Shown: one piece after another, positions 1,246 to 39,641 of the stretch | How the letters are laid out: each line of letters starts with the position of its first letter | Numbering within the stretch: the first letter of the stretch is position 1 | NCBI GenBank assembly: GCA_013820875.1 | Contig: JACDHS010000035.1 | Coordinates: forward strand, 1-40,405 | Source: Verrucomicrobiota bacterium | GTDB lineage: Bacteria > Verrucomicrobiota > Verrucomicrobiia > Limisphaerales > JACDHS01 | Length of the DNA: 40,405 nucleotides | Direction: 5' to 3' | Translations under genes and position numbers: made by a program | The notes under the pieces: model-generated | What the model saw: only the letters and a program-made list of their open reading frames with translations | Database searches by the model: none | Told to the model about the DNA's origin: nothing

Positions 1246-1537
1246 GATCAGAAGGTCTCAGGACGGGGTGTTCGTGACGAAAAAACGGATCAGAAGGTCT
1301 CAGGACGAGGTGTTCGAGATGAAAAAACGGATCAGAAGGTCTCAGGGCGAGGTGTTCGAGATGAAAAAATGGATCAGAAGGTCTCAGGACGAGGTGTTCG
1401 AGATAAAAAAGCGGATCAGAAGGTCTCAGGGCGAGGTGTTCGAGACGAAAAAACGGATCAGAAGGTCTCAGGGCGAGGTGTTCGAGATGAAAAAATGGAT
1501 CAGAAGGTCTCAGGGCGAGGTGTTCGAGATGAACGGG
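1246..1537. repeat. 42-bp minisatellite, 7 units
   Basis: Units start at 1246, 1288, 1330, 1372, 1414, 1456 and 1498, each beginning GATCAGAAGGTCTCAGG. All are exactly 42 bp, with only a few substitutions (GGACG/GGGCG, ATG/ACG). Because 42 is a multiple of 3, several frames on both strands stay open and give artificial 14-residue repeat proteins. The last unit is followed by an inverted copy of GGTCTCAGGGCGA at 1538-1550, which can close a 13-bp hairpin. The array starts where the similarity of the 187-bp repeat ends and lies inside a cassette body without an evident gene. Confidence 0.95.
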
Positions 1538-1719
1538 TCGCCCTGAGACCAAGGTGGAAACTGAGTTTCCTGGTGACTTGTGCTGTAAACTGGCAGGCGT
1601 AGCGTTCGTTAACATTCCAGACCCTGCGGGTGGAGTATTGGCGGGACGTGCGAGGTATGCCGGAGAGGGTGAATGAAAAGACGGTAGCGGCGAGTGATTT
1701 GTGGCGACGCTGACATAAA

Positions 1720-1807
1720 GTCTAACGCCAGCGTGAGTCACCGCCGGCCAGTGACTCAAGACAAAACAAAAAGCGCAACTGGCGGTTGGCTCGACGCTTT
1801 GTTAGGC
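1720..1807 (-). other. attC-like integron recombination site
   Basis: The site is bounded by GTCTAAC (1720-1726) and GTTAGGC (1801-1807), matching the RYYYAAC/GTTRRRY core pair. Internal arms also pair: AGCGT-GAGTC with GGCTCGACGCT, and ACCGCC-CCAGT with AACTGGCGGTT. This gives the imperfect 88-bp hairpin expected of attC. The toxin-remnant stop codon TAA lies inside the GTTAGGC heptamer (as GCCTAAC on the minus strand), a typical cassette arrangement. The minus orientation is assigned from the genes. Confidence 0.75.
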
Positions 1808-1892
1808 GCTTCGTGCGATGCGATGACGCCAATAATTTGGCTCCGGCTACTGTGCATGACGGCGATAATGAGCACGTAGAAACTCATATCTC
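1802..1892 (-). pseudogene. Remnant of RelE/ParE-type toxin
   Basis: Immediately after the antitoxin, an ATG overlaps its TGA stop (ATGA), the usual arrangement for a coupled toxin. After a few codons the sequence encodes FYVLIIAVMHSSR and then, after a one-base frame change, PNYWRHRIARSA and a stop in the attC core. 'AVMH-SR-P-YWR-R' is the typical C-terminus of ParE/RelE-family toxins. The roughly 60 residues expected before it are missing. I read this as a toxin gene with a large internal deletion plus a frameshift, leaving the antitoxin without a working partner. Family assignment rests on the C-terminal motif only. Confidence 0.6.
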
Positions 1893-2124
1893 ATCGCGCG
1901 ACAGCGCGTCGAACGCGAGCAAGAGCTTCGTCGCTGGGAACAGTTTTGACGCGCCCGCTACGAACGTCATCACGGCGGCGCACAGCCTCGGCGGCCCAAA
2001 GCTGCCGAACGTAGCCGTCCTCTGCCGGGTCAAGGCTCTCCACGAGACGGTCAGCGAGGAGCGCACGCGCCTCGCTCGGAAGAGAAAGCGCTTCCGCTGC
2101 AATTTGTTCAACGGTCATGCTCAT
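1891..2124 (-). CDS. Addiction-module antitoxin (TIGR02574-like)
   Basis: The 77-residue product begins MSMTVEQIAAEALSLPSEAR and continues ALLADRLVESLDP, the pattern of small helical addiction-module proteins that pair with ParE/RelE toxins. The second half is charged and rich in arginine, and would bind and neutralise the toxin. It overlaps the toxin remnant by ATGA. A start at the second Met (2118) is equally possible. It occupies one cassette between the attC-like sites at 1720-1807 and 2187-2300. With the toxin destroyed it may be an orphan that could still protect against related toxins (inference). Confidence 0.75.
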   Translation of the reverse strand: MSMTVEQIAAEALSLPSEARALLADRLVESLDPAEDGYVRQLWAAEAVRRRDDVRSGRVKTVPSDEALARVRRAVAR

Positions 2125-2186
2125 GCGTGAAAAATACCGGACGCTCTCGGAAAGCTCAACTCAGACGTAGTTTGTTGTGACTGAGC

Positions 2187-2300
2187 GCCTAACAAAAAAA
2201 GGAATGCAAATAATCCGAAGTGAAGCGGGTTAAGTCTCTCGATTATCCCAACCCTCACTCCCGCTTCACTTCGAGTTATCTACATTTCTTTTTGTTAGAC
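2187..2300 (-). other. attC-like integron recombination site
   Basis: The site is bounded by GCCTAAC (2187-2193) and GTTAGAC (2294-2300). It contains a perfect 14-bp inverted repeat CGAAGTGAAGCGGG (2216-2229) / CCCGCTTCACTTCG (2260-2273), and A/T-rich outer arms also pair (AACAAAAA with TTTTTGTT). The whole 114 bp can fold into one long imperfect hairpin with a 30-nt loop. It starts 4 bp after the stop codon of the upstream minus-strand gene, as expected of a cassette-associated attC. Confidence 0.8.
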
Positions 2301-2304
2301 CTTC

Positions 2305-2766
2305 TCAAAACGGCCTTCCTTTCTTAAAGGGATACTGCGGCCACGGGACGAACACCTTGCTGTCAACACTGTCGGGATCCCACTGCGCATTTACGTATTT
2401 GAGAGGACTTGCCGCGATCTGCATCCAAGTGATCCCGGGAAAGACCCGAAGATCCCAATGATCGGAGTCCCATGTTCCATATAGGCAAGCCTCAGGCAAC
2501 CAGAGAAGGATGAACTCAGGATCGTATGCTTCGGATTCGGCAACTAGGTTGACAGCAGGAATAGCGTAGTAGCCGTCCTCCCCTGCGTGCGGGTTCTGAT
2601 CGCCCAAAGAATCGTTATCCGGCTCAATCCATACCTCACCGACAGTGTGCGCCCCCATGGCAAGAAGTTTGATGTGACCGGGCTCGCATTTGCTTCCGTC
2701 GTAATCCAACTGTAGGCCCTTACTGAGGAATGTGACTAAATCATCTGGAAGTCGTATGGCGCTCAT
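2305..2766 (-). CDS. Conserved hypothetical protein (cassette gene)
   Basis: A soluble, acidic 153-residue protein starting MSAIRLPDDLVTFL, with motifs VGEVWI, HAGEDGYY, PAVNLVAE, DPEFILLWLP, HWDLRVFPGITW and a C-terminal PYPFKKGRPF-like tail. I believe this is a recurring family of unknown function in accessory DNA of several phyla, but I cannot name it. There is no signal peptide. The ATG lies 12 nt downstream of a GTTAGAC core (2785-2779) and the stop lies just before an attC-like hairpin, so the gene fills a complete cassette. Confidence 0.7.
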   Translation of the reverse strand: MSAIRLPDDLVTFLSKGLQLDYDGSKCEPGHIKLLAMGAHTVGEVWIEPDNDSLGDQNPHAGEDGYYAIPAVNLVAESEAYDPEFILLWLPEACLYGTWDSDHWDLRVFPGITWMQIAASPLKYVNAQWDPDSVDSKVFVPWPQYPFKKGRPF

Positions 2767-2778
2767 ATGTGCAACTGG

Positions 2779-2965
2779 GTCTAACAGTTGAGTCTACCTG
2801 CCGTGCTTGGCCTATCGCTGTTCATGTGGATTACCCTATTTCGCCCGAAAGGTGCTGTCGACAGCAATTGGCGTCCATTCCGGCTGTATAGGCGTGGTTT
2901 GCGCCGTTGAGTTACATCCTCGAATCTACAGACAGCCTCACGCCAGCCGTTTGGAGTGCTGTGAC
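2779..2965. repeat. 187-bp dispersed repeat, copy 2
   Basis: This is the second copy of the repeat at 1036-1222. It differs at about six positions and begins exactly at GTCTAAC (GTTAGAC on the gene strand), 12 nt upstream of the cassette gene start. A GTTGAGT heptamer at 2906-2912 could be the opposite core, making a 134-bp site, but the internal arms pair poorly. Similarity fades by about 2988. Confidence 0.85.
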
Positions 2966-3066
2966 GAATCAGTTTGTCATCACCAATGGAACGGTTGTCG
3001 TGAGTGAGCCTCTCGGGATCAATAGTAAATTCTATAGAGGCTCCGAAAGTAGTCACAACTGACCAT

Positions 3067-3852
3067 CTATATTGTCTTCCGGAGGCGAACGCGGAGCGTG
3101 AAGACGATGCTGAAAACCAGCAGCGTCAGGTATGACATCGCCATTCCCGCTACGGCAGTTCGGCCAGCGAAAACTTTCAGGATTCGATCGTCACCCAATC
3201 CGTTCGCTTTCCAGAAACCAAAAGCCACGGCTGGAATCGTTACTGTGAGAAACAGCGCCATGAGCATGATCACTTTTGGAATGTTGAACGGCCAAACAGC
3301 TTTATAATCAGTCGAAGCAGGAGCACGGTAGAGCCAGCGTCCACCCCAGAACGTCAGCAACAACATTCCCACAAATGTGCTGCCGTGTTGCGCCAGTTTG
3401 TATCCTTTCACTTCGTGACCTTTCAATTCGAACACCGTTTGTTGCAGAAACGGAAGGTGATGCGCAGTCCAGCCGTCTGCGTGCGTGAATGAGTCCCAGA
3501 ATAAATGTGTGAACGCTCCAATCGCCAAACCGGCACAAACGACCGGCAAATTGTGAACGTTCCGCCAGCGGGTGTTATCAAGGAATTGAGCCAAGCGGCT
3601 TGCGCACTGTCCCGGCAGCAACTCGATCAATGGTCGCTTTAATAAAAAATGAAACAGCATGAGCACCAGCAAGCCGCTCGGAATGCAAAACCACACGATA
3701 CCATCCAAACTGTGTCCAAGGTTCGCGGAGGGCCGGAGCGTGAATATTTTTGCGAAGTCCGGCGACATGCTCCCAACGACTAGGGCTGAAAGCGGCAGGC
3801 CCAGTCTGCGGAACGGAACCGCTGCCGCCGGATGTGCGAGGGTCAATGGCAT
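3067..3852 (-). CDS. DUF4184 family membrane protein
   Basis: The 261-residue product opens MPLTLAHPAAAVPFRR and has ALVVGSMSPDFAK shortly after, the DUF4184 signature. About six hydrophobic segments follow (near 50-67, 105-120, 158-172, 190-212 and 235-255), with histidines in AFTHLFWDSFTH and DGWTAHH. This HxxxD-type arrangement resembles membrane-bound metal-dependent phospholipase/hydrolase relatives, but activity is not established. The ATG is one base beyond the TAG stop of the upstream gene, so the two are almost certainly co-transcribed and translationally coupled. The context suggests envelope function. Confidence 0.8.
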   Translation of the reverse strand: MPLTLAHPAAAVPFRRLGLPLSALVVGSMSPDFAKIFTLRPSANLGHSLDGIVWFCIPSGLLVLMLFHFLLKRPLIELLPGQCASRLAQFLDNTRWRNVHNLPVVCAGLAIGAFTHLFWDSFTHADGWTAHHLPFLQQTVFELKGHEVKGYKLAQHGSTFVGMLLLTFWGGRWLYRAPASTDYKAVWPFNIPKVIMLMALFLTVTIPAVAFGFWKANGLGDDRILKVFAGRTAVAGMAMSYLTLLVFSIVFTLRVRLRKTI

Positions 3853-3853
3853 G

Positions 3854-6253
3854 CTATTTTAGATCCACCCAAATCGGCGATGACCACGCGCGATTGCCGT
3901 CGGTTTGCGTGATGCGGACGTAATAGAAATTCGGTCCACTTGCCGGTTTCGGTTGCCAGTTGTAGATGAGCGGCTTGCCGGGACTCGAAATTAAATCAAT
4001 GACGGAACTTTCCAGTTTTCCGTTCGTGAAGAGTTCAATTGAACGGACGCCGGCGGTAGGTCGTAGTTCGATTTTTATCGGAGACATCTTCTTTGTCTCG
4101 AAACGTTCTCCCATCCAATATTTGCCGCTGGTGACTTTCAGGATAATCGGCGCCGTTGCGCCGAATGTGCGACGCGCCTGCATTGAGCGGAAGATGGATT
4201 CACGCGTTGATTGTTCTGCCCAGACTCCGGCGAAACTTGCACTGGTGCTGAGATGATCGCTGCTGGCGATGAACCCGAATTCGTGTCCTTTGCTCAATCC
4301 TTCATTGGCTGCATCTTCGCCGCTCATGTGACGGTAGCCCTGGTAGATCTCCAGCAACGGACGGTGCGCGTTGTCCTTGTGTTTCCAGAGGGCGGGGTTG
4401 AACGGCTCATGCGGAATCGTGAAGGTGTCGGAATCCAGTTCCTGCCAGAAATCGGGCAGGGGATAGGTGTGCGGACGCATCTTGTCGGGACGCAGTGAGA
4501 TGACATTGTGATCGGTATCACCGCGGCTGCGTTCGTAGGAATAGAATGTAATGAAGGAGTCTTGCAGCTTGTGACGATCGGTTTCCTTCAATGCGCGCCA
4601 CCAGAGTTGGCTGAGCGGTTCGCCCATTTGCAGGTCGTGCGTGTGATCTGTGATCCCCAGGAAATCCAACGGCGCAGCATCAATTGCATAGCGATACGCA
4701 TCTTCAATGGTGCCATCGCTCGGTGTGTAACACAGCGACATGTCGGTGTGGCGATGCAGGTCGCCGAAGAAGAGTTGCATCTGTTTGCCATTGGCTTTGG
4801 TTACAGGACGCGAGTTGCGGGGTGTTGCAATTGAAGCTTTTGAACTTTCTGTTTGGAATGCCGTGGGTTGAATGGAAACGGAAGCTTTCGCCGCACCATC
4901 GAGCGTGACTTCGGAATATGCGATACCGCGCGGACGTTTGGGATGTTTCTGGCGATCCGTTCTGCCTGTGGTCCATATGGCGTTGAATCCGTCCTTTGTT
5001 GCAGAAAGGGAAAGCCGCTGCATGCCATCACCCTGGCCGACATCAAACTTCACAAGATCAGACCATCCGTCCTTCATTAAACAGCGGGCGTAAATCGCAA
5101 AATCATCTTCCACATGATGGTGGGGATGAAGTCCCATCCAGGGCGTGTAGTAATGGCGATAAACAATCCATGGACGGTTCAGTCCATCCAGCACCAACTG
5201 CGCGCGTTCATAGAACGCGCCCAAAAATTTTACATCACTCGGAGCATTGGATCGTTCCGCTGCCTGCTGCAAAGAAGGTTGTGGTAATGCGTAGCGTTTG
5301 ATTGGTTTCAGTGTCTTCGAATCCACTTCCGCCAGGTGTAATTTACGGAAGCGATGCACCGGGCCGACGGAATCGCCCATTTTGGTGGAGCCCTTGTCTC
5401 CGGGTATGCGGGCGGTGTAATGCTTGCCCCAGTTTGCGCCGTCTTCTTCCCAGGAAATAAAAAGGCGACTGGTTTTATCCGCAATCACTTTGGCGCGACC
5501 TTCGAAAGCAGCCGTTCCGGCAATCGTTGAAATATTGCTCCACTTCCCATCACGAAACGAACGGAGGACAACGTTGTAACTCTCACCATCATAGGAGTCC
5601 CATGCAACGATCAGTTCGCCTTTCGCTGTCATCGCAGCACTTGGCTGCCAATCGCCGCGTGGACTGCTGCTGATCGTGTGAATCTCTGACAGTTTGCTGC
5701 CGGAAAGTTTGCGGCCCAATATTTCGAACTGTCCGTCCTGGTCGCTTTGCCAAACGATCCAGAGTCCCTCGTTTGAATCGGCGACCACCGAATGATTGAT
5801 GTCCGCTCCTTCCGCAGTGCTGATCTTTTGTGCCGCGCCGAATTTCTTGCCATCATAGGGACGCGCAAAAATGTCCCACTTGCCGCCTGGCCCGGCTTCA
5901 TAGGTCAGCCACAGTTTGCCTTTGGCATCAATGGTTAAAGTCGGTTTTGCAAATGCGTCGTGTTTCGGAGTGATTTGTTCTTTCTGAGCCCAATCGTCAT
6001 TCTTTCGGAGCCCGACCCAAATCACGTCGCCTTTGCCGGGCTGAAACTCGAGCCAGGTCAGCCAGTTGCCCTCCGTCGTCGTTGCGATATCCGCATCATA
6101 GAAGAATTCGTTATCGAGAACCTTGGCTTTAAGATTCTTCTCCGCGAAATCGTAAACGAATTCTGAGCCATCCACTTTTTGCTTTTTACCGGGGGCCGAG
6201 ATGGCAACAGCACTGGTCAGAAGGAGGAACACTATCGATCGCATGAGAGTCAT
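3854..6253 (-). CDS. Secreted beta-propeller / PHP-domain fusion protein
   Basis: A signal peptide (MTLMRSIVFLLLTSAVAISA) supports starting at 6253. The frame is open to 6316, but the extra N-terminus is not signal-like. The first 430 residues or so carry repeated W-containing blades (GKLWLTYEAG, GLWIVWQSD, GELIVAWDS, SRLFISWEED), as in TolB/sialidase-like propellers. The C-terminal part opens with FFGDLHRHTDMS and later has LGITDHTHD, the HxH and DH metal-site motifs of PHP phosphoesterases. A metal-dependent hydrolase acting outside the cytoplasm, with the propeller for binding, is inferred; the substrate is unknown. It is coupled to the DUF4184 gene. Confidence 0.8.
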   Translation of the reverse strand: MTLMRSIVFLLLTSAVAISAPGKKQKVDGSEFVYDFAEKNLKAKVLDNEFFYDADIATTTEGNWLTWLEFQPGKGDVIWVGLRKNDDWAQKEQITPKHDAFAKPTLTIDAKGKLWLTYEAGPGGKWDIFARPYDGKKFGAAQKISTAEGADINHSVVADSNEGLWIVWQSDQDGQFEILGRKLSGSKLSEIHTISSSPRGDWQPSAAMTAKGELIVAWDSYDGESYNVVLRSFRDGKWSNISTIAGTAAFEGRAKVIADKTSRLFISWEEDGANWGKHYTARIPGDKGSTKMGDSVGPVHRFRKLHLAEVDSKTLKPIKRYALPQPSLQQAAERSNAPSDVKFLGAFYERAQLVLDGLNRPWIVYRHYYTPWMGLHPHHHVEDDFAIYARCLMKDGWSDLVKFDVGQGDGMQRLSLSATKDGFNAIWTTGRTDRQKHPKRPRGIAYSEVTLDGAAKASVSIQPTAFQTESSKASIATPRNSRPVTKANGKQMQLFFGDLHRHTDMSLCYTPSDGTIEDAYRYAIDAAPLDFLGITDHTHDLQMGEPLSQLWWRALKETDRHKLQDSFITFYSYERSRGDTDHNVISLRPDKMRPHTYPLPDFWQELDSDTFTIPHEPFNPALWKHKDNAHRPLLEIYQGYRHMSGEDAANEGLSKGHEFGFIASSDHLSTSASFAGVWAEQSTRESIFRSMQARRTFGATAPIILKVTSGKYWMGERFETKKMSPIKIELRPTAGVRSIELFTNGKLESSVIDLISSPGKPLIYNWQPKPASGPNFYYVRITQTDGNRAWSSPIWVDLK

Positions 6254-6295
6254 GACGCTTGGAGGATAGGTTTGGTTGCAAAGGGAAAGCAATCC

Positions 6296-6474
6296 CCGGA
6301 GCGCGGTGCGAAGCATCAGCCGCAGCGGGTAAGGCTGTGGATTGCGGCGTTCAGATTCCCAAAGCGCTTGAACAATTCACCCGCTGCGGCCGATGCTTCG
6401 CACAAACCAGAACTAGAAATGACGAATCGCTTTGCGGTTACGCCGCGCTCCTTTTTGCGGATTTGGCCGCGCCG
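6296..6474. repeat. Dispersed palindromic repeat, copy 1
   Basis: An inverted repeat GCGAAGCATCAGCCGCAGCGGGT / ACCCGCTGCGGCCGATGCTTCGC-type (arms near 6308-6330 and 6391-6413) is followed by ACAAACCAGAACTAGAAA-like DNA and a G/C-rich tail (TTTGCGGTTACGCCGCGCTC). The same arrangement recurs at 20747-20930. It lies between divergent genes. Both copies are noncoding and resemble a MITE or REP-type element. Confidence 0.75.
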
Positions 6475-6543
6475 TGACTTTATGCGTATTAAAACCCGGT
6501 TAGAAAAGTTGTCATCCGTGCCATTTGGATTCACTAATACAAC

Positions 6544-7215: not shown

Positions 7216-7242
7216 GGCAGTATTCAGTGTTCCGGAATCCGT

Positions 7243-10821: not shown

Positions 10822-11078
10822 TTATATTAAATAGGCAAGTTGGTCAAAGTAATTGCGGTCGCAGCAGCGGGGGCACGTGCTACCGGGATCCTGGCGGCAG
10901 ATTGAGCGACTCAGGGCTTTTTTTCTGCCCGGCAAGTGCCGCGGAGCACATTGGGAGGGATGCATCCCCAGTTTCTTGCAGTGCGTCTCAATCCTGAACA
11001 CAGGGCGGGACGCCCAGTGAACTCGCAGCCGAGGACGGCTACGCTACGTGGGGCGGCACGTCAACTGCCACCAATGAT

Positions 11079-11216: not shown

Positions 11217-11246
11217 TTCGAGACGCACCTCGGGTTTTCACCGCTC

Positions 11247-11656
11247 AAAATAATCACCCTACTCCGAGAATGATTACTGATTTAGAAAAAATCAGCCAAA
11301 TTTACCGCTGGACTTCAATAATTCACGGTAAAATGCTCAGCGTTACCAAGAAATATCAGCGTTGTATTATAAAACGGTTAGCGTTACTGAACAATCCAGA
11401 TGATTTATCTTAAAAGAGTTACCATTATTGGTAAGTATAGATAATTTTCTGTAAAACGGCCATCGTTACCGGGAAAGCTGAGTAGTTTTGCGTAAAATAA
11501 GTAGCGTTACCAGGAACGGTAGAAAATTCATTATGAAATGAATGATATTACCGGTAAAGCTGGTCATTTTATTCTAAAAGGCAGGGCATTTCCGATAATT
11601 TGGATTCTTTTATTGAAAAATAATGGCCAATTGGGCGGAGTACTGTCATTTTCGCC
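11247..11656. repeat. 41-bp periodic array, 10 units
   Basis: Units start at 11247, 11288, 11329, 11370, 11411, 11452, 11493, 11534, 11575 and 11616, an exact 41-bp pitch. Each begins with T/AAAA and has GTTACC (or ATTACC, TTTACC) 13 bp later; the next 22 bp or so are variable but A/T-rich near the end. Examples are TAAAACGGCCATCGTTACC at 11452 and TAAAATAAGTAGCGTTACC at 11493. Outer units are more degenerate. The array ends about 30 bp before the start of the hypothetical gene at 11684. Confidence 0.85.
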
Positions 11657-11683
11657 GTCCTTGAATCCTCTCGGGGGTAATTT

Positions 11684-12598
11684 ATGAAGAATACAATCAC
11701 AAGTTCGCCGGTGAAGTTGATCCCGCAGATCACGTTGGCCATTCCAGGTGTCACAAAGTATGAAGCAGCTATTGGGCTTCCCGTCGGCATGGCAGCCAGC
11801 ATGCAAATAAAAAAGGGGGCGTTGGTCGCCAGCGACTCAAATTACGAACAGGCGCGGCTCGATCTTAAAAGCGCCACGGCTGCCCGGCGGTTGGCAATCA
11901 AGAAAGCCCGGAACCATGTTCGGACGGTTCGCGAACTGGTGAGGCCGACGTTGACTCCAACCTATTCGCAGGCCTGGGATGCCTTTGGTTTCCAGGGATC
12001 GTTGAAGGTTCCCGGCAAGGTGAATAGCCTGGTGTTGATGTTGACCAAGATGGGCAGTCACCTGGCGGCGAATCCTGACCTGGGCGCCGATGAATCCAAC
12101 CTGGTTGCAGCGAAGATCGCAGCTCTGGAGACAGCGCTGGTGACGGCGAACACTGTTGTGAATAAGAAGAAGGCGGTTTTGCAACGATCACTGGAGGAAC
12201 GCGCGGAGAAGGCGGAGGAAGTGCGTTACATTCTGCGCGAGTTGTCCAGCGCGCTTCGGCTGAAACTCGCTCCGCTCGATTCGCGCTGGGTTGAATTCGG
12301 GTTCAACAAGGTGGGCGCCCGTCCGACGCCGGATGCACCCGCGGGTGTCACAGCGGTGCTGATCGGAACGAATGCGATTTCCGTGAAATGGCCGCCGACA
12401 GCGCGTGCGGAACATTACCGCGGTTGGAAACGGGTGATTGGTGTGGATGCAGAAATGGTTTTCGTTGGCAGCACGTCAGATTTGGACATGTTGATGGAGG
12501 AGTTGCCGGGTAATTCGGAGGTGGAGGTGGCGCTTTCGGCTGTCAATAATGGGGGTGAAAGCGCGCGCAGCACGGTGGTGATCGTGCGGATCTTGTAG
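11684..12598 (+). CDS. Hypothetical protein with C-terminal FnIII-like domain
   Basis: This is a 304-residue protein without a signal peptide. Residues 45-215 are helical, rich in Ala, Lys, Arg and Glu, with probable coiled-coil stretches (around ATAARRLAIKKARNHVR and LQRSLEERAEKAEEVRYIL). Residues 218-304 fit a fibronectin type III fold: PDAPAGVTAVLIG, ISVKWPP and a final VALSAVNNGGES. The same architecture recurs in Verrucomicrobia proteins of unknown function, as far as I recall. The start at 11684 is preceded by a GGGGGT purine run about 8 nt upstream. The 41-bp array lies directly in front and could influence expression. Confidence 0.6.
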   Translation: MKNTITSSPVKLIPQITLAIPGVTKYEAAIGLPVGMAASMQIKKGALVASDSNYEQARLDLKSATAARRLAIKKARNHVRTVRELVRPTLTPTYSQAWDAFGFQGSLKVPGKVNSLVLMLTKMGSHLAANPDLGADESNLVAAKIAALETALVTANTVVNKKKAVLQRSLEERAEKAEEVRYILRELSSALRLKLAPLDSRWVEFGFNKVGARPTPDAPAGVTAVLIGTNAISVKWPPTARAEHYRGWKRVIGVDAEMVFVGSTSDLDMLMEELPGNSEVEVALSAVNNGGESARSTVVIVRIL

Positions 12599-15478: not shown

Positions 15479-15613
15479 AATTATTTTATTTTTTTCTGCT
15501 GATAAATGACATTTAGGCTTGAGAAAAAACACGGGTGAAGCATAATCGAAAGCGTCAGCAGAGAGCGTGAGTGAAGCTCTCCGATCTTTGTAAAATATTT
15601 TGGAATTTTAGAA

Positions 15614-15800
15614 TTCCCTGCCTTGTTCGTGATACGAAACTAAGTCCTTGAACCGTAAGCTCGTAAAAACGGAACCTTGACTTCGATGGTGGCCGACAGG
15701 CCTTTACTGGAAGTCGTAAGCCACATGATTGGGTTCCACCTGTTTCAGGTCAGTTCAAAGGAACTGTTACACACGGCAAAGGCGGGGTTATTTTTTTCTC
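15614..15800 (+). ncRNA. ssrS: Probable 6S RNA
   Basis: About 180 noncoding bases can fold into one long interrupted rod. The ends CCCTGCCTTG (15616-15625) pair with CAAAGGCGGGG (15777-15787). Next, AAGTCCTTGAAC pairs with GTTCAAAGGAACT, then GGAACC with GGTTCC and GACTTC with GAAGTC, capped by GGCC-GACA-GGCC. TTATTTTTTT follows as a terminator tail. The size, closing stem, central bubble and position upstream of rarA and 5-formyl-THF cyclo-ligase match known 6S RNA contexts (near ygfA in E. coli, near yrvN/rarA in Bacillus). TAAAAT near 15590 could be the -10. The identity is inferred from structure and context. Confidence 0.6.
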
Positions 15801-28288: not shown

Positions 28289-28410
28289 ATGACCCAAACT
28301 CTCCGTGTCGGACTCATCGGTTACAAATTCATGGGGAAAGCGCATTCCAATGCATGGCGGCAGGGTGAATCGCTTTTTCCCCGAACTGCCGGCGCGCATC
28401 GAATTGCCCT
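28289..28410 (+). pseudogene. Gfo/Idh/MocA oxidoreductase, 5' fragment, frameshifted
   Basis: The frame starts MTQTLRVGLIGYKFMGKAHS and NAWRQ, the Rossmann N-terminus of Gfo/Idh/MocA NAD(P)-dependent sugar dehydrogenases. After GGCAGG an extra G shifts the frame; the expected family sequence VNRFFPELPARIELP continues one base out of frame. At about 28410 recognisable gene sequence ends and the 41/42-bp array begins. The family is normally 350-400 residues, so about 90% is gone. Frameshift plus truncation make it a pseudogene. Confidence 0.8.
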
Positions 28411-28416
28411 CAAAAA

Positions 28417-28690
28417 GACTTTTTTGGCCAAAGTCAGGACCGTCTGGCCATCGAAACGGACTTTTTTGGCCAAAGTCAGGACTGACTTTGCTCAAAAAAG
28501 TCTTTTCCAGCCAAAGTCAGGACTGACTTTGCCCAAAAAACTCTTTTTCGGCCAATGTCGGGACCGACTGCCCACCCAAACGGACTTTTTTGGTCATTGT
28601 CAGGACTGACTTTGCTCAAAAAAGTCTTTTCTGACCGTTGTCAGTCCTGACTTTGGCCAAAAAACTCTTTTTTACGCAATGTCAGGACCG
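28417..28690. repeat. 41/42-bp array with 124-bp higher-order repeat
   Basis: Units start at 28417, 28459, 28500, 28541, 28583, 28624 and 28665, with lengths 42, 41, 41, 42, 41, 41. The core is (G/C)ACTTTTTTGGCCAAAGTCAGGAC-like (in two parts: GACTTTTTTGGCC and AAGTCAGGAC). Units 1, 4 and 7 resemble each other, as do 2 and 5, and 3 and 6, giving a 124-bp period. GACTTTG...CAAAAAAGTC inverted elements can form hairpins. The array directly follows the truncated oxidoreductase. The remaining 28691-28892 shows no gene I can support. Confidence 0.92.
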
Positions 28691-28892
28691 GACCAGCCTC
28701 CAAAAAGAAGTCTTCGTCTCGCGTAACCGCCTCTACATTAACGACTATTAGCGCAGAAAGGCGATTCAACTGCCGTTTCAAGGTGAAATGGCGTGTTCAC
28801 GAATAACTTCCATTTCGCGCCCTCGAAAACCATCTTGTCCGCTACATCGGGGGGCCTGAAACCAAACTGGGTCAGTATTCGTTGTCACCGAA

Positions 28893-29303: not shown

Positions 29304-29319
29304 GGCAGTAAGGGGGAAG

Positions 29320-30276: not shown

Positions 30277-30282
30277 TCCTGC

Positions 30283-30864: not shown

Positions 30865-30913
30865 GATTTTTGCTGAAGGCTGACCAACAATCCTATTTCA
30901 AATCAGGGCCGGG

Positions 30914-31924: not shown

Positions 31925-32109
31925 GACGTCAGGTTGCATAACAAATGAGGTTGGGCAAAGGAAGTAATTTGTTGAATCGTTGAACGATTGGGGGGGGAAC
32001 GCGTGAAGCGTGTCAGATAGGCGCAGGGCGGAGGCGAGCGTAATCGCAGCGCTCAAGGCTGCAGGACTCCAACGTTGCTCGCATTGCCGTACGCGCTGCG
32101 GCGCCTCAT

Positions 32110-33522: not shown

Positions 33523-33551
33523 CCCTCGAGTGGTAAGCCAACGACGTCAAA

Positions 33552-33650
33552 GTGGCAAATGAACAAATCATCGAAAATTTGCTCAAAATGGCCAAAGCCC
33601 CCGATCAATGCAGCCTACACATGGAACCGAGCCGTTTGTCCAAGAGATAG
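33552..33650 (+). CDS. Possible very small protein
   Basis: A 32-residue frame from a GTG start reads VANEQIIENLLKMAKAPDQ and continues CSLHMEPSRLSKR before TAG. It has protein-like composition and lies tail to tail with the aminotransferase gene (stop at 33651). There is no clear Shine-Dalgarno site or relative I can name. It may also be a fragment or chance. Confidence 0.3.
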   Translation: MANEQIIENLLKMAKAPDQCSLHMEPSRLSKR

Positions 33651-34826
33651 TTATTTCGCCAGTGAACGGGCAAACTTATCAATCCGTTCCAGTCCCTTTT
33701 GCAGGTTTGCCATGCTGGTTGCGTAGCTGATCCGGATGTAATCGTCGGCGCCGAAGGCAATGCCCGGGACGGCTGCCACTTTTTCCTGTTCCAACAGCTT
33801 TGCGCAGAAATCCATCGAATTCAGGCCGAGCTTGGAAATGTTCGGGAAGAGATAAAAGGCTCCTTTGGCATTCACGCAGGAGATACCCGGAATGCTGTTT
33901 AGCTTTTCAAAAGCGTACGCGCGTCGTTTCGCGAATTCGGCAAGCCAGGGTTGCAGATGATCCTGCGGGCCGTTCAATGCGGCAACAGCGCCTTTTTGCG
34001 CGAAAGAAGTCGGGTTGCTCGTGCTGTGGCTTTGTATTGCATCAATCGCTTTTGCAATCGGTTCAGGGGCAGCCAAAATGCCGATCCGCCAACCGGTCAT
34101 GGACCACGCTTTTGCCAAACCATGCACAACGATCGTGTGATCGTAGTGCTCCTGGGAGAAACTCGCGACGCTGACATGTTTGGCATCATCGTAGAGGAGA
34201 TGCTCATAAATTTCGTCGCTCAGGATCAAAACATCTTTTTCAACGCAAATATCGCCGAGCGCTTTGATCTCTTCCGGGGTATAAACCGAGCCGGTTGGGT
34301 TGCTCGGCGAATTCAGAATAAACAGGCGGGTTTTCGGTGTGATGGCATTGCGAAGCTGTTCCGGAGTGACTTTGAATTCCGTTTTGTCGCTCGTTTCGAT
34401 AACCACGGGAGTCGCTTCCGCGAGTTTCACCATCTCTGGGTAGCTCAACCAGTATGGGGCCGGAATGATGACTTCATCGCCCGGTTCACAGAGCGCCATC
34501 ATGACGTTGTAACAGGAATGTTTCCCGCCGCAGGAAATGATGATCTGGGACGGCTTATAGGTAAGCCCATTGTCCCGTTTGAATTTATCCGCAGCAGCCT
34601 GGCGCAGTTCAGGAATGCCGCTGGCGGGCGTGTACTTTGTAAAACCTTCAGCCAGGGCTTTGACGGCGGCATCCTTGATGTGTTGCGGTGTGTCGAAATC
34701 AGGTTCGCCGACACCGAATCCAACGACATCGATTCCTTCAGCTTTCATCTGCTTGGCTTTGGAATCGATTGCCAAAGTAATGGATGCAGTCAGTGACGCG
34801 GCGCGTTTGGAAATCTTGTAATTCAT
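33651..34826 (-). CDS. PLP-dependent aminotransferase (aspartate aminotransferase type I)
   Basis: The 391-residue enzyme starts MNYKISKRAASLTASITLAI; the extra upstream frame to 34880 is not family-like. It has VVGFGVGEPDFDTPQHI, YTPASGIPELRQAAADKF, LNSPSNPTGSVYTPEE, ILSDEIYEHLLYD and the PLP lysine in HGLAKAWSMTGWRIG, all typical of class I (Ib) aspartate/prephenate aminotransferases. These transaminate oxaloacetate and related 2-oxoacids. The exact substrate cannot be told. Confidence 0.92.
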   Translation of the reverse strand: MNYKISKRAASLTASITLAIDSKAKQMKAEGIDVVGFGVGEPDFDTPQHIKDAAVKALAEGFTKYTPASGIPELRQAAADKFKRDNGLTYKPSQIIISCGGKHSCYNVMMALCEPGDEVIIPAPYWLSYPEMVKLAEATPVVIETSDKTEFKVTPEQLRNAITPKTRLFILNSPSNPTGSVYTPEEIKALGDICVEKDVLILSDEIYEHLLYDDAKHVSVASFSQEHYDHTIVVHGLAKAWSMTGWRIGILAAPEPIAKAIDAIQSHSTSNPTSFAQKGAVAALNGPQDHLQPWLAEFAKRRAYAFEKLNSIPGISCVNAKGAFYLFPNISKLGLNSMDFCAKLLEQEKVAAVPGIAFGADDYIRISYATSMANLQKGLERIDKFARSLAK

Positions 34827-34907
34827 AAAACGAGGGGCAAGAAATAACGGGCAGGGCAGGGATTGCAAGGGATTTTGCAATCAGTAGTTGTTCCCAGTGG
34901 AATTTAC

Positions 34908-35720
34908 TTACTTGCGAACGACTGATTGCAGACGCTGCAGATCGTCCCCATCCAGGCCCTCAGCGTCCTGGTACCAGCCGGTGAATTTCTTGTCAGCGAG
35001 CCAGTTCCAACGTTCGATATGCCCATCAGCGAAGGAAAGATTGCCCGCGCGCCCATGCCGGACAGATGGCATGTTGATCCACCTCTTGCCGTTTGGGTCC
35101 ACGGCGAAATGCGCATCCGAAATGGAATCCTCATGAGTGTCTATAAAAACAAAGAGCCGGGCGGGATTCTGGTTCTGCATTTCGCCCTGCTTGCGGAAAG
35201 CAGGGAATGAGCTCACCTGAGAATTGATTGCACTGCTCATGCTGTAACTGCGTGTGCGCAATACCGGATCGCTTCCTGTGGGAAGCTCCACCTTGGAGTT
35301 ATCCGATGGACAATGGTAAATGGCTGCCGAACGATTGTATTCAAACAACTGTCCGCGCTCGATGTTCGCGGATGTGAAATCGATCCGGGTATTTCCAGGG
35401 CACCACGAATCGCCGTTATAGGTTTGGGCGCTGCCGAATTTTATCCCGTCTACAAAATCGTTAGCGGGCAGTTGGCCGCTGTTATCATCCGGGAACATTT
35501 GCCAGGACAATTGCAATTGACGTAAATTGTTGAGGCACGAGATCGCTTGTGAACGGGTGCGACCTTTATTTAACGCAGGCAGGAGGATGGCACTCAGCAC
35601 CGTCATGATGAGAATAACGGCCATCAACTCAACCAGTGTAAACCCACGGCAACGTCGATCCTTAAGGCAATAAGGGGATGCCTTAGTCGCAGATCTAATT
35701 GATGTGGCGAGCCGGTTCAT
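34908..35720 (-). CDS. Type II secretion/prepilin-like protein (H-X9-DG)
   Basis: The 270-residue protein has a pre-pilin site GFTLVELMAVILIMTVLSAI preceded by a basic leader (RSATKASPYCLKDRRCR), cleaved after Gly with Phe methylation, and a long N-terminal hydrophobic helix. The globular part ends with VRHGRAGNLSFADGHIERW, the H-X9-DG motif of proteins abundant in Planctomycetes and Verrucomicrobia. It would be a pseudopilin or surface protein. No gsp genes are adjacent. Confidence 0.9.
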   Translation of the reverse strand: MNRLATSIRSATKASPYCLKDRRCRGFTLVELMAVILIMTVLSAILLPALNKGRTRSQAISCLNNLRQLQLSWQMFPDDNSGQLPANDFVDGIKFGSAQTYNGDSWCPGNTRIDFTSANIERGQLFEYNRSAAIYHCPSDNSKVELPTGSDPVLRTRSYSMSSAINSQVSSFPAFRKQGEMQNQNPARLFVFIDTHEDSISDAHFAVDPNGKRWINMPSVRHGRAGNLSFADGHIERWNWLADKKFTGWYQDAEGLDGDDLQRLQSVVRK

Positions 35721-35770
35721 GACTGGGTTTGATACTCAAATAACAAAGCCCGGCACGTTTGGCAACATTC

Positions 35771-36793
35771 TTAATGCGTAAGTAAATCCAGCAGTCGCAG
35801 CCCGTTTTCCCCTAAATTCCATTTCCCTTTGGTTTGCGTCACCAGTTTCCGACACGGATTTTTCTTATATTCAGCAGCATTTACGGAAATAAGGTGATAC
35901 TTGCCGCGGCTTTTCATCTCTTTATCCGATAGCGGAATCGCTTTGACCGGCACCCCATTATAATTCATCACCAGTTCGTAACCGACAATTTCGCCGCGTG
36001 CTGATGGGGTGTGCTCGACCAGGGCCGCATAACGTTTCAGCCACGGAAAGCTCGTGTTGCGCACCTGCACCCGGAAGAGTTCCTGCCCGCTTTGAATCCA
36101 GCGGACCAGGTTGAAGTCTTTGCCCTCGCGATGACTTGCCAGGAGCGCGAGTCGCGGATCCAGTCCCAGCAAATTTTGGCCGTTCCACAGCCCGTGATCG
36201 TTTTTTCCGGTGAAATGCTTTTTGTGCCAGATGGGAAATCGTTCATTGACGAAGAGATTCAGCTCAAAATGGAGATGCGCGCGTTCTTTTGAAATTGCCT
36301 CCCGCGTATTGGTTGTCCGGCCCATCAACGCGATGGCTTCCCCCGCCTTCACGTTCTGCCCGGCTTTCAGTCCCGTTCGCACTCGGGATAAGTGCGCATA
36401 CAACGAATAAACCTCCAGACCATCAATTTGATGCCGGATAACAATGTAGTTTCCGTAATTGGATAATGATGATTTCCCATTGATATAAACAACAGTGCCA
36501 TTGGCTGTCGCGAGAACTGGATCGGTGGATTCGCCATCTTTATCCCGTTGAATACTGCGGATGTCGATCCCCTCATGCATTTGCCAGCCCCCGGAACGCA
36601 CACAGCCATAGGTGCCACTTTCCCAGGTGCGCGCAATTGTAGGGCAAAAATATTGGTCCTGTTCCTGCAAGTTGAACAGGGACTGGTTTGCCGTCGGCAA
36701 CTTAAAGGTTTGGGAATGAACAGATGCTGCCCAAAAGAGCAGAAGGACGAGAACGAAGGACGAACGATTCACTCCGTAAAGGATGGAGTTCAA
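35771..36793 (-). CDS. M23 family peptidase
   Basis: The protein has a signal peptide (SSFVLVLLLFWAASVHS), followed by the LytM-type zinc site: MHEGIDIRS (HxxxD), an Ala-rich core YSLYAHLSRV and HLHFELNLF (HxH). It is predicted to cut peptidoglycan cross-links or act as a regulator. The start is uncertain: TTG at 36793 lies inside the 7-bp tandem repeat, and a GTG at 36772 (MNRSSFVLV) gives a cleaner signal peptide. C-terminal residues 230-340 are an unassigned domain. Confidence 0.85.
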   Translation of the reverse strand: MNSILYGVNRSSFVLVLLLFWAASVHSQTFKLPTANQSLFNLQEQDQYFCPTIARTWESGTYGCVRSGGWQMHEGIDIRSIQRDKDGESTDPVLATANGTVVYINGKSSLSNYGNYIVIRHQIDGLEVYSLYAHLSRVRTGLKAGQNVKAGEAIALMGRTTNTREAISKERAHLHFELNLFVNERFPIWHKKHFTGKNDHGLWNGQNLLGLDPRLALLASHREGKDFNLVRWIQSGQELFRVQVRNTSFPWLKRYAALVEHTPSARGEIVGYELVMNYNGVPVKAIPLSDKEMKSRGKYHLISVNAAEYKKNPCRKLVTQTKGKWNLGENGLRLLDLLTH

Positions 36794-36846
36794 AGTTCAA
36801 AGTTCAAAGTTCAAAGTTCAAAGTTCAAAGTTCAAAGTTCAAAGTT
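36791..36846. repeat. 7-bp tandem repeat, 8 copies
   Basis: CAAAGTT is repeated eight times without a break. It covers the translation initiation region of the peptidase gene, in which the first TTG lies. Copy-number slippage could alter the leader and therefore expression. Degenerate relatives (TTTGAACC, CTTGAACC) follow to about 36890. Confidence 0.97.
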
Positions 36847-36895
36847 GGCGAACGCACATTAACTTTGAACCTCGAACCTTAAACCTTGAACCCTC

Positions 36896-37438
36896 TTAGA
36901 ACTGCGTCTGCTTTCTCACGCGTTCGGCGACATTCCTGATGCCATAAATCATACGTTCAGTTTCCTCCCGGGTGGCGTCTGGTGTGAACGTCAGGAATCC
37001 CGAAGCATTTCGCTGATGGATCAGCGGCGCCCCAAGCCAGCGTTGTTCCGTCCCGGTTATCGCCAGGATGGCGATTGGTTTTCCGCGATTCGCGGTGGTG
37101 AGTGTATCCAGGACAAAAGTTCCGTGCGCATCGAATTGAAGCTGAATCGCAAACCCGGACTGATCTTCTACCAATCGCCCGTCCGTAATGTTGCGCCAGT
37201 CAAGAAATGGAATCGGATCCACGGAAACGTAAATTGGTTTTTGCCGATAGATTTCGATGCTTCGTCCGCTGCTGTTTGCTGCGCCGCCGAGGTGTAATTG
37301 CAGTAGAGTTTTTTCGTTTTTATACTTCTTTCGCAGGGCGGTTTCCTCTGGATTCTGCTTGGTGGTTTGGCAGGCGGTAAAGGCGCTGCAACAGAGAAGG
37401 AGTAAAATGATGTTGAACCGTGACAGGCAAATCTTCAT
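36896..37438 (-). CDS. Lipoprotein with SecD-head-like domain
   Basis: The 180-residue protein has a lipoprotein signal (IILLLLCCSAFTAC, lipobox with Cys23). The rest has FAIQLQFDAHGTFVLDTLT, GKPIAILAIT and FTPDATREETERMI, similar in pattern to the P1-head domain of SecD (not a SecD, as no membrane helices follow). It is probably anchored to the outer or inner membrane facing the periplasm. It faces the small basic protein gene divergently, with only about 45 bp between the starts, so promoters must overlap. The role is unknown. Confidence 0.6.
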   Translation of the reverse strand: MKICLSRFNIILLLLCCSAFTACQTTKQNPEETALRKKYKNEKTLLQLHLGGAANSSGRSIEIYRQKPIYVSVDPIPFLDWRNITDGRLVEDQSGFAIQLQFDAHGTFVLDTLTTANRGKPIAILAITGTEQRWLGAPLIHQRNASGFLTFTPDATREETERMIYGIRNVAERVRKQTQF

Positions 37439-37484
37439 ATTCAGAGCTTAACGAACCGATTTATTTGTCACAACAATACCACCT

Positions 37485-37604
37485 ATGGGCAAGCAATATA
37501 AAAAAACTGAGAAGCGCACACGTCGTCTAAACTACCTGAAACGCAAGAAAGAAGCCGCCAAGGTAAAGACCAAAGCCCCTGCCAAAGTCGCCGCCAAAGC
37601 CTGA
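37485..37604 (+). CDS. Small basic protein (39 residues)
   Basis: MGKQYKKTEKRTRRLNYLKR is followed by a Lys/Ala-rich tail (KTKAPAKVAAKA). It has 16 Lys/Arg in 39 residues, is unlike a ribosomal protein I can name, and resembles small basic proteins I have seen in Verrucomicrobia genomes (from memory). A strong terminator follows 20 bp after the stop, which supports a real transcript. It would bind nucleic acid (inference). Confidence 0.7.
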   Translation: MGKQYKKTEKRTRRLNYLKRKKEAAKVKTKAPAKVAAKA

Positions 37605-37623
37605 GTAAAACTTTTTTCCAAAG

Positions 37624-37654
37624 AACCGCCCGAGATTTCTTGGGCGGTTTTTTT
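37624..37654 (+). terminator. Rho-independent terminator
   Basis: AACCGCCC (37624-37631) pairs perfectly with GGGCGGTT (37642-37649), followed by a run of seven T. It lies 19 bp after the small basic protein gene. Confidence 0.93.
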
Positions 37655-38149
37655 GTTCCCGCCTCAGCAAAAAACTTATTCACCAGCGCGCTTCTTCCCG
37701 AGCTTTTGAATGTGAATAACGTGGGCATGTGTGTCTTCCTCGGTGTCTCCGGATAGGCTCTCCAGTGAATAACCCTGTGGATATCGTTCCATCGTCAAAA
37801 CTAAAATATTTGTTAAGCTGATCACGTTCTTTGAAAGAACTGGAGTCAAGCGGCGGACGCAAAGAAAGCTGCGGAAACTTCAGCGGATAATCCCGGGTGA
37901 CCGGGGAAAGGTTGAGCCAGGCTGGTTGGCTCGGCCCCTCCAGAAACACAATCGCAAGATCGGCTCTAGAGGCATTATTCACCTGTTCCCCTGGCGCGGT
38001 CGCACGCGTCAGTAATGCGAATCGGGAACATGGCGGCCAGGCGCGATTAGAAACCGCGTTGAACCGAGTCAAGTAGCGCAAGTTGGTTTCGGACTTGCGC
38101 GAATCGCAGTTACCCAAAGAGGTTTGTGGTTGCTACTGCGGACCAGCAC

Positions 38150-38690
38150 GGATCGGACGACTCTGGCGATTGATAAAAGCTTTCGCCAAATGAAAGACGC
38201 CGAAAGGCGGGACAAACTGAGCGTTCGACCGGGAAGGACACACTGTCACAGGCAAAACGTGTGAAACCTTCCGAAACGCCGGCGATGCCTCAAAAACACC
38301 GCTGGCTTGTGAACTAAAAGCAACCTGAGAGATAAGAGGCAAGACCCGTCCTGCGCTGGCCAACGCGTTGTCAAAAGCAACGGCCGTCCTGCGCGATGGG
38401 TCAAGACGCGGAGAAAAGATCACAAACGTGTCTTGACCTGGTTTGCAAGCCGGTGGCGCAACCACCGGTTGAAGCGAGCTAACAAGCCTCACTCGATAAT
38501 TCAGTGTCGCGAGACGCTGAACGGCCCCGCTACGAGGCCGGACACTCCGCTTGCCGTGGAGAAGTAGCGTCGGGAAGCCGGCAGCCACTTTGTGGCGCCC
38601 AATGTCGGCCCGGGAAAGAGAGCGTGGCGCACTCCCAACCCCGACTTTTGTCCCCGTTCAACCGCAATGGCTGGACGGGGATTCTTGTTT
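38150..38690 (+). ncRNA. Candidate large structured RNA
   Basis: Stable nested hairpins cluster here: CGCC-GAAA-GGCG (about 38197-38208, GNRA loop), CCGGTGG-CGCAA-CCACCGG (near 38449-38468), CGCTAC/GTAGCG enclosing CTCC/GGAG (about 38526-38570), and a terminator-like CCCCGT...ACGGGG followed by TTCTTGTTTTT (about 38653-38693). The minus-strand frame 38133-38588 is open but GTG-started, poor in start signals, and followed after one TAG stop by open sequence to 37680 in the same frame. I think that frame is a by-product of conserved RNA. The class is not identified; group II domain V and tmRNA/RNase P motifs are absent. Confidence 0.4.
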
Positions 38691-38730
38691 TTACCCCAAA
38701 GCGGGCCATTCAGTTAAGCGCGTTGCCCCA

Positions 38731-39117
38731 TCAATCTCCATCCGGCGACAATCGAACGACACAAAACCCGAAATCGAACACGGTGTGTTCCCCCTCTTTC
38801 GTAACGTTCAACCCCGGCGCCAGGCTATAGAGCGCACGGCGACGATCACGCGAATCCTCCGTCTGGACCACGATTCCCGCATCCATCATCAGCTTCAGGT
38901 TCTTGAGGGTTGAAGTGAGAAAATTGCTGTCGGCACAACAGGAACCGCGTCCCCGCCCGGCATGCATCAGCTCAGCCGCCGTCTGTGGCTTCTTGTCCGC
39001 CATCGCAACCAGCAATTTGCGTCGTGCCACTTGCATCAGCACAGAAAAAATCAGTTCCTGATCCAATAGAGGTGCCCCGGCAGGCGTTGCAGCGGTCGGA
39101 AACTCAGAAATAGACAT
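38731..39117 (-). CDS. Winged-helix DNA-binding protein
   Basis: From Met at 39117 (MSISEFPTAATPAG) the protein is 128 residues; the frame stays open to 39282, but the extension is low-quality. LLDQELIFSVLMQVARRKLLVAMADKKPQTAAELMH (cited here as a region, about residues 17-55) and FLTSTLKNLKLMMDAGIVV look like helix-turn-helix and recognition helix of an ArsR/MarR-like regulator, and RDRRRALYSLAPG as the wing. It lies between the structured-RNA region and the 42-bp array, on the other strand from the RNA. Its target is unknown. Confidence 0.6.
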   Translation of the reverse strand: MSISEFPTAATPAGAPLLDQELIFSVLMQVARRKLLVAMADKKPQTAAELMHAGRGRGSCCADSNFLTSTLKNLKLMMDAGIVVQTEDSRDRRRALYSLAPGLNVTKEGEHTVFDFGFCVVRLSPDGD

Positions 39118-39319
39118 GACGCCATCATTCAAAAGCTGCCGCAACCGACGCAAGCACTGAATCCATCCGCAAAAATCATCCATTTCTCCTGATCTGCCTT
39201 TCGAACCTGCTTCAAATACCCGGAAACATCCATTCCCCCCCGGTTTTGATCCAAAAGAACTGTCAAACTCCAGGTTCAGCAATGTTTCAGCAGAAAAAAT
39301 CCCCGAAACCGCAAATCAC

Positions 39320-39641
39320 GTTAACTTTTATTTCCGCAAAAGACCTTTGTTACTTCGCATCGTTAACTTTCTTTTCCGCAAACCCACCCACTCGAAGTGT
39401 CTTGTTAACTTAAATTTCCGTAATCGTGCAGATGATCCTGGTGTCGTTAACTTTTATTTCTCGAAAACACCATCGTCGCCTTGAACTGTTAACATATTTT
39501 TCCGCAAAAGGACTGAGGCTAATTGATTCGTTAACATAAATTTCCGTAAAAGGCGGGAGCAACCGTGAAATGTTAACTTTCTTTTCCGCAAACGTCTCAT
39601 GGGCGAGCTATTTGTTAACTTAAATTTCCGCAAAACAGGTG
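39320..39641. repeat. 42-bp periodic array, 8 units with variable halves
   Basis: Units begin at 39320, 39362, 39404, 39446, 39488, 39530, 39572 and 39614, an exact 42-bp pitch. Each has GTTAAC then TTTTATTT-like and CCGCAAAA (consensus GTTAACTTTNTTTCCGCAAA), about 23 bp, followed by about 19 bp that differ in every unit. The conserved half is half the pitch, giving a repeat/spacer look. The units are too degenerate for a CRISPR (4-6 changes between units in the conserved half). The array lies between the winged-helix gene and the RAYT gene. Confidence 0.93.

Follow-up and report, generated by a model that had tools for sequence, protein, structure and literature searches.

The DNA analysed here is a stretch of 40,405 nucleotides from a Verrucomicrobiota bacterium (hereafter the window; contig C27 of the 5.70-Mb draft genome G000), which contains four tandem repeat arrays with mutually unrelated units and a common pitch of 41 to 42 bp. 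They appear to belong to a lineage-specific class of dispersed intergenic elements, typically made of 7 to 9 units of 41 to 43 bp. Across the sampled part of the genome the arrays share this pitch, a usual number of units, two-fold symmetric sites (dyads) whose paired positions are constrained, a dispersal as modules and an under-dispersed spacing. We tentatively read them as arrays of dyad sites for a putative dimeric DNA-binding protein, probably architectural, a reading that we regard as a serious possibility just short of an even chance and that suggests an undescribed way to mark or fold a chromosome.

All 14 hits of a lag scan of the window (200-base windows, lags 15 to 150) with an identity of at least 0.47 fell at 41, 42 or a multiple of these, while the identity over all windows had a mean of 0.253 and a standard deviation (SD) of 0.034. 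Chance periodicity was therefore rejected as the origin of the arrays. A wider scan (lags 12 to 400, 160-base windows) added a single 255-bp and a single 14-bp stretch. The program Tandem Repeats Finder (TRF) reported arrays 1 and 3 (Table 1) and missed the degenerate arrays 2 and 4, the best 200-base identity of array 2 being 0.575 at lag 41. The four same-pitch arrays described in an earlier sequence-only reading of this DNA were thus all recovered by TRF and lag autocorrelation. For array 2, which that reading started at 11247 and credited with ten units, the array itself was found and its extent was corrected by unit alignment to that given in Table 1. The four arrays do differ in sequence as it had described, the circular identities between their units being at the shuffled level for all six pairs (P 0.10-0.93). 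It had further suggested that a weak likeness between arrays 2 and 4 may point to a common ancestor. Their identity of 0.43 (P 0.64 against shuffles) is at chance, and the sequence comparison does not support a common origin for the four arrays of the window.

The pitch was studied in a sample of 1.295 Mb on 40 contigs of G000 (23% of the genome), the first part of which covered 1.035 Mb. Genes were called with a simple hexamer model, and stretches were counted as noncoding when at least half of them lay outside called genes. The first 1.035 Mb contained 64 periodic noncoding stretches, 52 of which had a period of 41 (26), 42 (21) or 43 bp (5), with no noncoding stretch at periods 38-40 or 44-46. 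Over the full 1.295 Mb the fraction at 41, 42 or 43 was 58/71. An array of period 40 and another of 129 (three times 43) bring the array total to 60; the other noncoding periods were 14 (3), 16 (3), 27, 230, 256, 273 and 340. With TRF, every one of the 34 noncoding arrays of the 1.035 Mb having at least 4.5 copies and a period of at least 10 was at 41-43, and no noncoding tandem duplication, even of two copies, was detected at 25-40 or 44-80 bp. TRF arrays with fewer than 4.5 copies included periods of 10-24 and multiples of 41-43. A composite scan at a lower threshold recovered 57 known arrays and no new one; it returned 0 to 1 stretches at each of the lags 30-37 and 46-54, and a few at 28-29 and 55-57 (28 and 56 are multiples of 14). 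The mean pitch was 41.6 bp, and the whole genome would contain, roughly and by extrapolation, 265 arrays. Slippage minisatellites of random length were rejected, as the pitch is locked at 41-43. A coding amino-acid repeat was likewise rejected, because 33 of the 58 arrays have a period of 41 or 43, which is not a multiple of 3; the stretches counted lie at least half outside called genes. The 36 arrays with both neighbours (12 divergent, 18 tandem and 6 convergent, 16 more being at edges) showed no gene-orientation preference beyond the effect of intergenic length.

In the sister genus (the sole same-family genome, 262 kb), the noncoding periods were 41 (8), 83 (1), 13, 24, 103 and 368, and the array sequences, compared by eye, were unlike those of G000. 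No noncoding array of period 40-44 was found at a threshold of 0.5 in 34 stretches of 24 genomes of the same order (600 kb). When the threshold was lowered to 0.46 and coding DNA was included, weak 42-bp signals appeared in 4 of 14 same-order stretches; three weak 42-bp hits were obtained in a control of 110 loci (1.48 Mb, coding included), of which 80 came from distant bacteria (an RNase Y scan) and 30 were small ones, one from G000 itself. The five best named hits of the RNase Y scan were Lentisphaeria or Victivallis, which would fit a PVC-group host. The sequence-only reading had argued that the pitch is fixed independently of the sequence and that an excess of 41-42 bp periods should then be seen genome-wide and in relatives. 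Such an excess was observed, 41-43 bp outnumbering every other pitch in both the sampled part of G000 and the sister genus. As a separate observation, one sister-genus gene (L235) is 88% identical to a gene of G000, the mean identity of reciprocal best hits being 50%, and possibly reflects recent transfer or contamination.

The number of units is 7, 8 or 9 in 37 of the 52 non-edge arrays (range 1-12, the value of 1 being a failed unit alignment), whose length averages 313 bp (SD 81). The two-fold symmetry of the units averaged 0.611, against 0.492 for dinucleotide shuffles (z 12.7 over 29 families), and reached P<0.05 in 16 of these families; the corresponding z was 6.8 over nine sister-genus arrays, five of them at P<0.05. 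With single-letter shuffles as the null, 16 of 38 units had a best dyad with at least 8 of 9 pairs (0.5 on average in the null, maximum 3), and 9 of the 38 had a second dyad with at least 7 of 9 pairs (null 0.2, maximum 2). The distance from dyad to dyad was 20-21 bp, i.e. half a unit or two helical turns, in 7 of the 9 two-dyad units. The symmetry is also constrained. Paired columns varied less between units in six out of six tests against a rotation null (P from <1/500 to 0.010), a safer null which superseded one of uniform mutation (z 12.9). In diverged arrays the conservation of paired positions exceeded that of unpaired ones by 0.11 (SD of the rotation null 0.016); the fraction of paired positions climbed with conservation from 86/200 to 124/149. 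A/T tracts were more conserved between units as well, as judged with the uniform null only. Several weakly shared words recur in the 38 units: AAAAA in 19 (6.3 expected), CGGAAA in 10 (1.7 expected), GACGTC and CACGTG in 4 each (0.2 expected). The sequence-only reading had placed the constraint on spacing rather than on sequence; the constraint on spacing holds, and the opposition does not, since dyad symmetry is constrained too.

The positions of the arrays along the chromosome were compared with four nulls of 2000 simulations each. Among the 34 distances between neighbours on the same contig, 2 were below 8.5 kb (0.8 and 4.9 kb), where 13.8-17.1 were expected, and no simulation was as low as the observation. 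The coefficient of variation of the distances, which involves no cut-off, was 0.50, against 0.82-0.93 under the nulls. In the 3.4-8.5 kb range alone, which is immune to the loss of contigs shorter than 3 kb, 1 distance was counted for 8.1 expected (P 0.0005), and the 47 arrays located at least 1 kb from contig ends gave 1 for 5.8 expected (P 0.012). A first null, which spread arrays evenly over noncoding bases and expected 18 distances below 5 kb, exaggerated the effect and was replaced. None of the 34 neighbouring pairs belonged to the same family, so that the avoidance acts between unrelated sequences.

Clustering at a circular identity of 0.66 (shuffled maximum 0.50) distributed 52 arrays into 29 families, and at 0.62 the 60 arrays formed 31 families. 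Members of a family are scattered as modules. Array 3 is matched in full or in part, at 83-99% identity, on contigs C204, C43, C87, C20, C60, C239, C2 and C189, and has no match in 57 relatives, the sister genus included. Searching with a 1.2-kb query, we found that the homology begins at 28406 in three copies, which defines a sharp left end, and stops at 28706-28714 in four copies, where the repeat located at 28707-28791 begins; two copies continue into that repeat. Array 4 has a copy on C93 (94% over 549 bp) in which the repeats and the 'spacers' are alike, the similarity stopping at 39747. A 91% copy of the last units of array 1 together with its right flank (1435-1626) lies on C154. Another family has three copies with a common left flank of about 70-130 bp that carries an inverted partial unit. 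In diverged copies (arrays 3 and 4, with relatives at 84% and 94%), unit variants are kept in register with a difference of at most one unit.

Other repeats were noticed in the window. The one at 28707-28791 is a small dispersed repeat with at least 31 matches, resembling a miniature inverted-repeat transposable element; a search with a longer relative gave 21 copies in the sample, 8 of them within 600 bp of an array. Directly to the right of array 4, at 39767-40327, a Y1 (RAYT-like, for REP-associated tyrosine transposase) transposase gene stands beside palindromes similar to repetitive extragenic palindromes (REP), and no Y1 match is found on C93. The segment 1033-1246 is repeated at 2776-2988, with homology ending at the start of array 1. 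A repeat at 1719-1816, which we take to resemble an integron attC site, has 10 further matches, eight of which are paired 0.4-2.8 kb apart (C9, C20, C115, C220). To the left of array 2, another dispersed repeat (10969-11055) has at least 25 matches.

Table 1. Arrays of the window and associated features
Feature	Position	Strand	Description
Array 1	1246-1533	no strand	42 bp x 6.9, 93% matches (TRF), near-perfect
Array 2	11284-11653	no strand	8-9 degenerate 41-bp units (unit alignments)
Array 3	28404-28690	no strand	7 units of 41/42 bp; 124-bp three-unit period; unit strongly symmetric
Array 4	39303-39639	no strand	8 x 42 bp; GTTAAC...TTTCCGCAAA part conserved, remainder variable
Dispersed module represented by array 3	28406-28706	no strand	matches on eight other contigs
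Inverted partial unit of array 1	1538-1550	no strand	just beyond the right end of array 1; read from the sequence
304-aa FN3-tailed protein	11684-12598	+	two long helices, each followed by a short helix; C-terminal FN3

The mechanism that we propose starts from units that each span about four helical turns, many of them offering two-fold symmetric sites; some families have two dyads 20-21 bp apart, so that dyads recur on the same face of the helix. A putative dimeric protein, for which shape and symmetry count more than sequence, may bind these dyads cooperatively and so build a one-faced nucleoprotein patch. Such a patch would serve chromosome architecture (anchoring of supercoil domains, or folding) more likely than the control of particular genes, because arrays of different families are mostly about 9 kb or more apart and adjoin unrelated genes. 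Among the 41 genes that passed filtering and have an array 5' of them, 30 encode a mixture of functions, with DnaB, DnaX, PGI, transketolase, hemB, SOD, PRPP synthetase, transporters and others. A cognate regulator encoded next to each array was rejected on these 30 genes, which include two DNA-binding regulators (LacI and sigma-70 type) and four without a Pfam match. We also considered a wider interpretation, in which a chromosome code made of geometry and not of sequence, with about eight four-turn units and one-face dyads for a putative shape-reading protein, would set marks at intervals rarely shorter than about 9 kb, the letters being free to diverge, so that almost every array may be different. 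Both the code itself and this manner of marking we hold to be doubtful.

Several points weigh against dyad sites for an architectural protein. The distances were taken on a sample of contigs from a draft assembly in which breaks at arrays are frequent, the cut-off of 8.5 kb was picked after the distances had been seen, and two pairs of arrays are just 0.8 and 4.9 kb apart. Symmetry is not significant in 13 of the 29 families and in 4 of the 9 sister-genus arrays, and the number of units differs among copies of some families (10, 4, 4, 3, 9; 8, 7, 5, 8, 7; 9, 5, 9). Five of the 52 arrays taken singly have an excess of compensatory changes at P<0.05. Nine sister-genus arrays lack the bending predicted in G000 (10.4-bp harmonic z 0.7; curvature z +1.0, in the opposite direction). 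Synteny between G000 and the sister genus is too slight for a comparison of array positions (50 reciprocal best hits and 8 collinear gene pairs, none of them with an array). The binding protein is putative, and proteins of the HU type show no expansion, G000 having 3, the sister genus 2 and 18 other genomes 0-4.

The main rival is that the arrays are selfish, non-autonomous mobile satellites devoid of host function, produced by one enzyme or replication process measuring 41-43 bp, e.g. rolling-circle copying of a small circle. The modular dispersal of the families, exemplified by array 3 with its eight further contigs, sharp left end and lack of matches in relatives, speaks for it, as does the lack of off-pitch tandem duplications, which implies that an array acquires its pitch when it arises or soon after. 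A plain selfish element would not predict the conservation of dyads, the 7-9 units or the avoidance between families, and just 7 Y1 transposase matches (6 over the cut-off) were found for about 30 families. We judge this explanation unlikely, and a selfish origin can coexist with the architectural reading. A descent of all arrays from one ancestral satellite, with a sequence drifting by concerted evolution and a length kept without function, would account for lengths differing by single bases (41, 42, 43) and for a between-family identity slightly above the shuffled one (0.434 vs 0.422, some pairs having intermediate identities beyond the null). The unit variants kept in register by diverged copies are unlike satellite turnover, and the dyad constraint and the spacing are left unexplained, which makes this descent the least probable of the explanations considered.

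Two further rivals dispense with a specific protein or place the symmetry in a hairpin. Intrinsically bent DNA would work through phased A/T tracts forming a curved or superhelical stretch without a specific protein. It draws on G000, where the AA/TT power at 10.4 bp in 29 consensus units reached z 5.0 against dinucleotide shuffles and z 3.4 against intergenic DNA. In a wedge model, the ratio of end-to-end to contour length was 0.615 for 41 arrays and 0.875 for 210 intergenic stretches (P 4e-15), 25 of 29 families being more compact than the median of their own shuffles. The signal was not replicated in the nine sister-genus arrays, and some families, F9 and F10 among them, have no A/T tract in their consensus. 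Predicted bending would therefore be a trait of the G000 arrays and not of the array class, so that the bending put forward by the sequence-only reading is retained for the window's genome only, and bent DNA as the general explanation seems improbable. Arrays of hairpins or cruciforms, active as RNA or as DNA that absorbs supercoils, would fit the strong predicted folding (mean z -6.5 and -6.4 on the two strands of 48 arrays, -2.2 in 45 intergenic controls), the inverted partial units at certain array ends and the five single arrays with compensatory changes mentioned above. Summed over 52 arrays, however, double changes preserving pairing (72 vs 54 expected) were in no greater excess than those breaking it (91 vs 73), and selection for hairpins was rejected on this ground. 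Folding has no strand preference, and hairpins need no fixed helical pitch. No Rfam family was found, at the gathering threshold, at the arrays of the window or of loci L008, L010, L011, L020, L040, L217 and L232, by which a known RNA family was rejected too. As there is no specific enrichment of compensatory changes and the two strands fold in the same way, sites for a protein are favoured over hairpins, to which we grant little probability.

Array 2 ends 31 bp upstream of the ATG of a gene coding for a 304-amino-acid FN3-tailed protein (Table 1), whose helical part looks like an internal duplication; in its predicted structure (pLDDT 89), long helices form pairs and are accompanied by an FN3 domain. 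The family stood out by its position: of the 10 members in the sample, 7 lie next to an array, which in every case is 5' of the gene. It has 54 matches in G000, 40 of them near full length, and 7 of the 60 arrays adjoin one of its genes. Among the best 30 loci, 17 of the 27 genes with at least 700 bp of upstream sequence have an upstream array at 41-43 bp, compared with 56 of 257 genes whose upstream gap is 300 bp or longer (P 5e-6); in the sample, the fractions were 7/9 for FN3-tailed genes and 75/883 for other genes (P 1e-6). Both probabilities count the cases as independent, which they are not: sample members are among the 30 loci, and some close paralogues share upstream DNA. No 41-43 bp array was found downstream of the genes at these 30 loci, where the downstream sequence is sometimes shorter than 1.5 kb, and at two loci a period of 32 or 48 bp occurs there. 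The family is expanded in this lineage. In the sister genus, where 40 of 109 candidates were scored, it has at least 40 members, with an array upstream of one of the three examined, and 56 other genomes of the order have 0-6 members each. Any match to the protein was found in 17 of 58 genomes, several matching the FN3 part only. As for a possible role as array binder, the best 50 of 399 Foldseek rows (E<=0.001) were FN3-containing chains and PDB profile hits were confined to the FN3 part; phage and plasmid records gave no match.

The paralogous genes on C160, C175 and C78 are 71-90% identical to the window copy (11682) over the gene start, and this similarity stops at the start codon, the C175 gene still having an upstream array, as if upstream modules were exchanged as blocks. 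Elsewhere in the window, a MISL RNA (RF03079, 559 bits) was detected at 37885-38635 and a 6S RNA at 15612-15792. A perfect AGTTCAA repeat (x 8.6) at 36787-36846 overlaps the start of an M23 peptidase open reading frame (ORF), and may constitute a phase-variable start.

Bacterial repeat classes are usually defined by a shared sequence, whereas the present one is defined by the pitch, the usual number of units and the symmetry that unrelated sequences have in common, and would thus escape sequence searches. If the arrays anchor supercoil domains, their spacing would be a directly testable map of domain boundaries; if they are selfish, a copying machine that measures four helical turns is implied. 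The literature search returned no description of same-pitch arrays of different sequence, many subscription papers being outside its reach, so that absence from print is not claimed; the parts seen of PMC4210602, PMC3733652 and PMC2700814 held no match to such arrays.

Known systems were compared with the arrays. A CRISPR array was rejected since array 4 and its C93 copy share their 'spacers' too and many arrays repeat the whole unit. No cas gene was found among the 30 ORFs of the window or 30 array-flanking genes, and one Cas1 ORF is present in the genome on C160, a contig outside the array scan. The BIME-2/REP arrays of E. coli (BIME, bacterial interspersed mosaic element) are likewise intergenic and dispersed with palindromic units, in what we saw of PMC6379681 and PMC3733652, and like them our arrays are intergenic arrays of palindromes, with dyads in part of the families. 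BIMEs are characterized by shared REP sequences and a link to RAYT, whereas here some 30 families share just the pitch and a tendency to dyads. RAYT-driven REP/BIME was rejected, as no palindrome is common to the 29 families (52 arrays) and the 7 Y1_Tnp matches stand against about 30 families in 23% of the genome. Being tandem non-coding repeats whose families are dispersed in the genome, the arrays correspond to bacterial non-coding satellites, and the nearest report is that of the non-coding 46-nt satellite families of Leptospira interrogans (PMC6749651). There, several dispersed non-coding families are present, three with a 46-nt unit in the part of the table seen; they are far fewer, with 42 satellites in chromosome I, two thirds of them intergenic. 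The parts of that report consulted describe no dyad or spacing property. Phased A-tracts of prokaryote genomes (PMC3940949) also place A/T tracts in helical phase, as a genome-wide signal in the part consulted, while the present arrays are discrete. Finally, according to the portion of PMC6379681 available to us, gyrase has strong sites in some E. coli BIME-2, which might thereby help to organize the genome. The 130-bp DNA gyrase motif described in the same portion is degenerate and symmetric, with indirect readout and phased GC/AT, its flanks being modelled with a 43-bp bent fragment. It consists of one symmetric site with a 10.75-bp phasing and the arrays consist of tandem 41-43 bp units; by analogy, it offers a precedent for a degenerate, symmetric and phased site.

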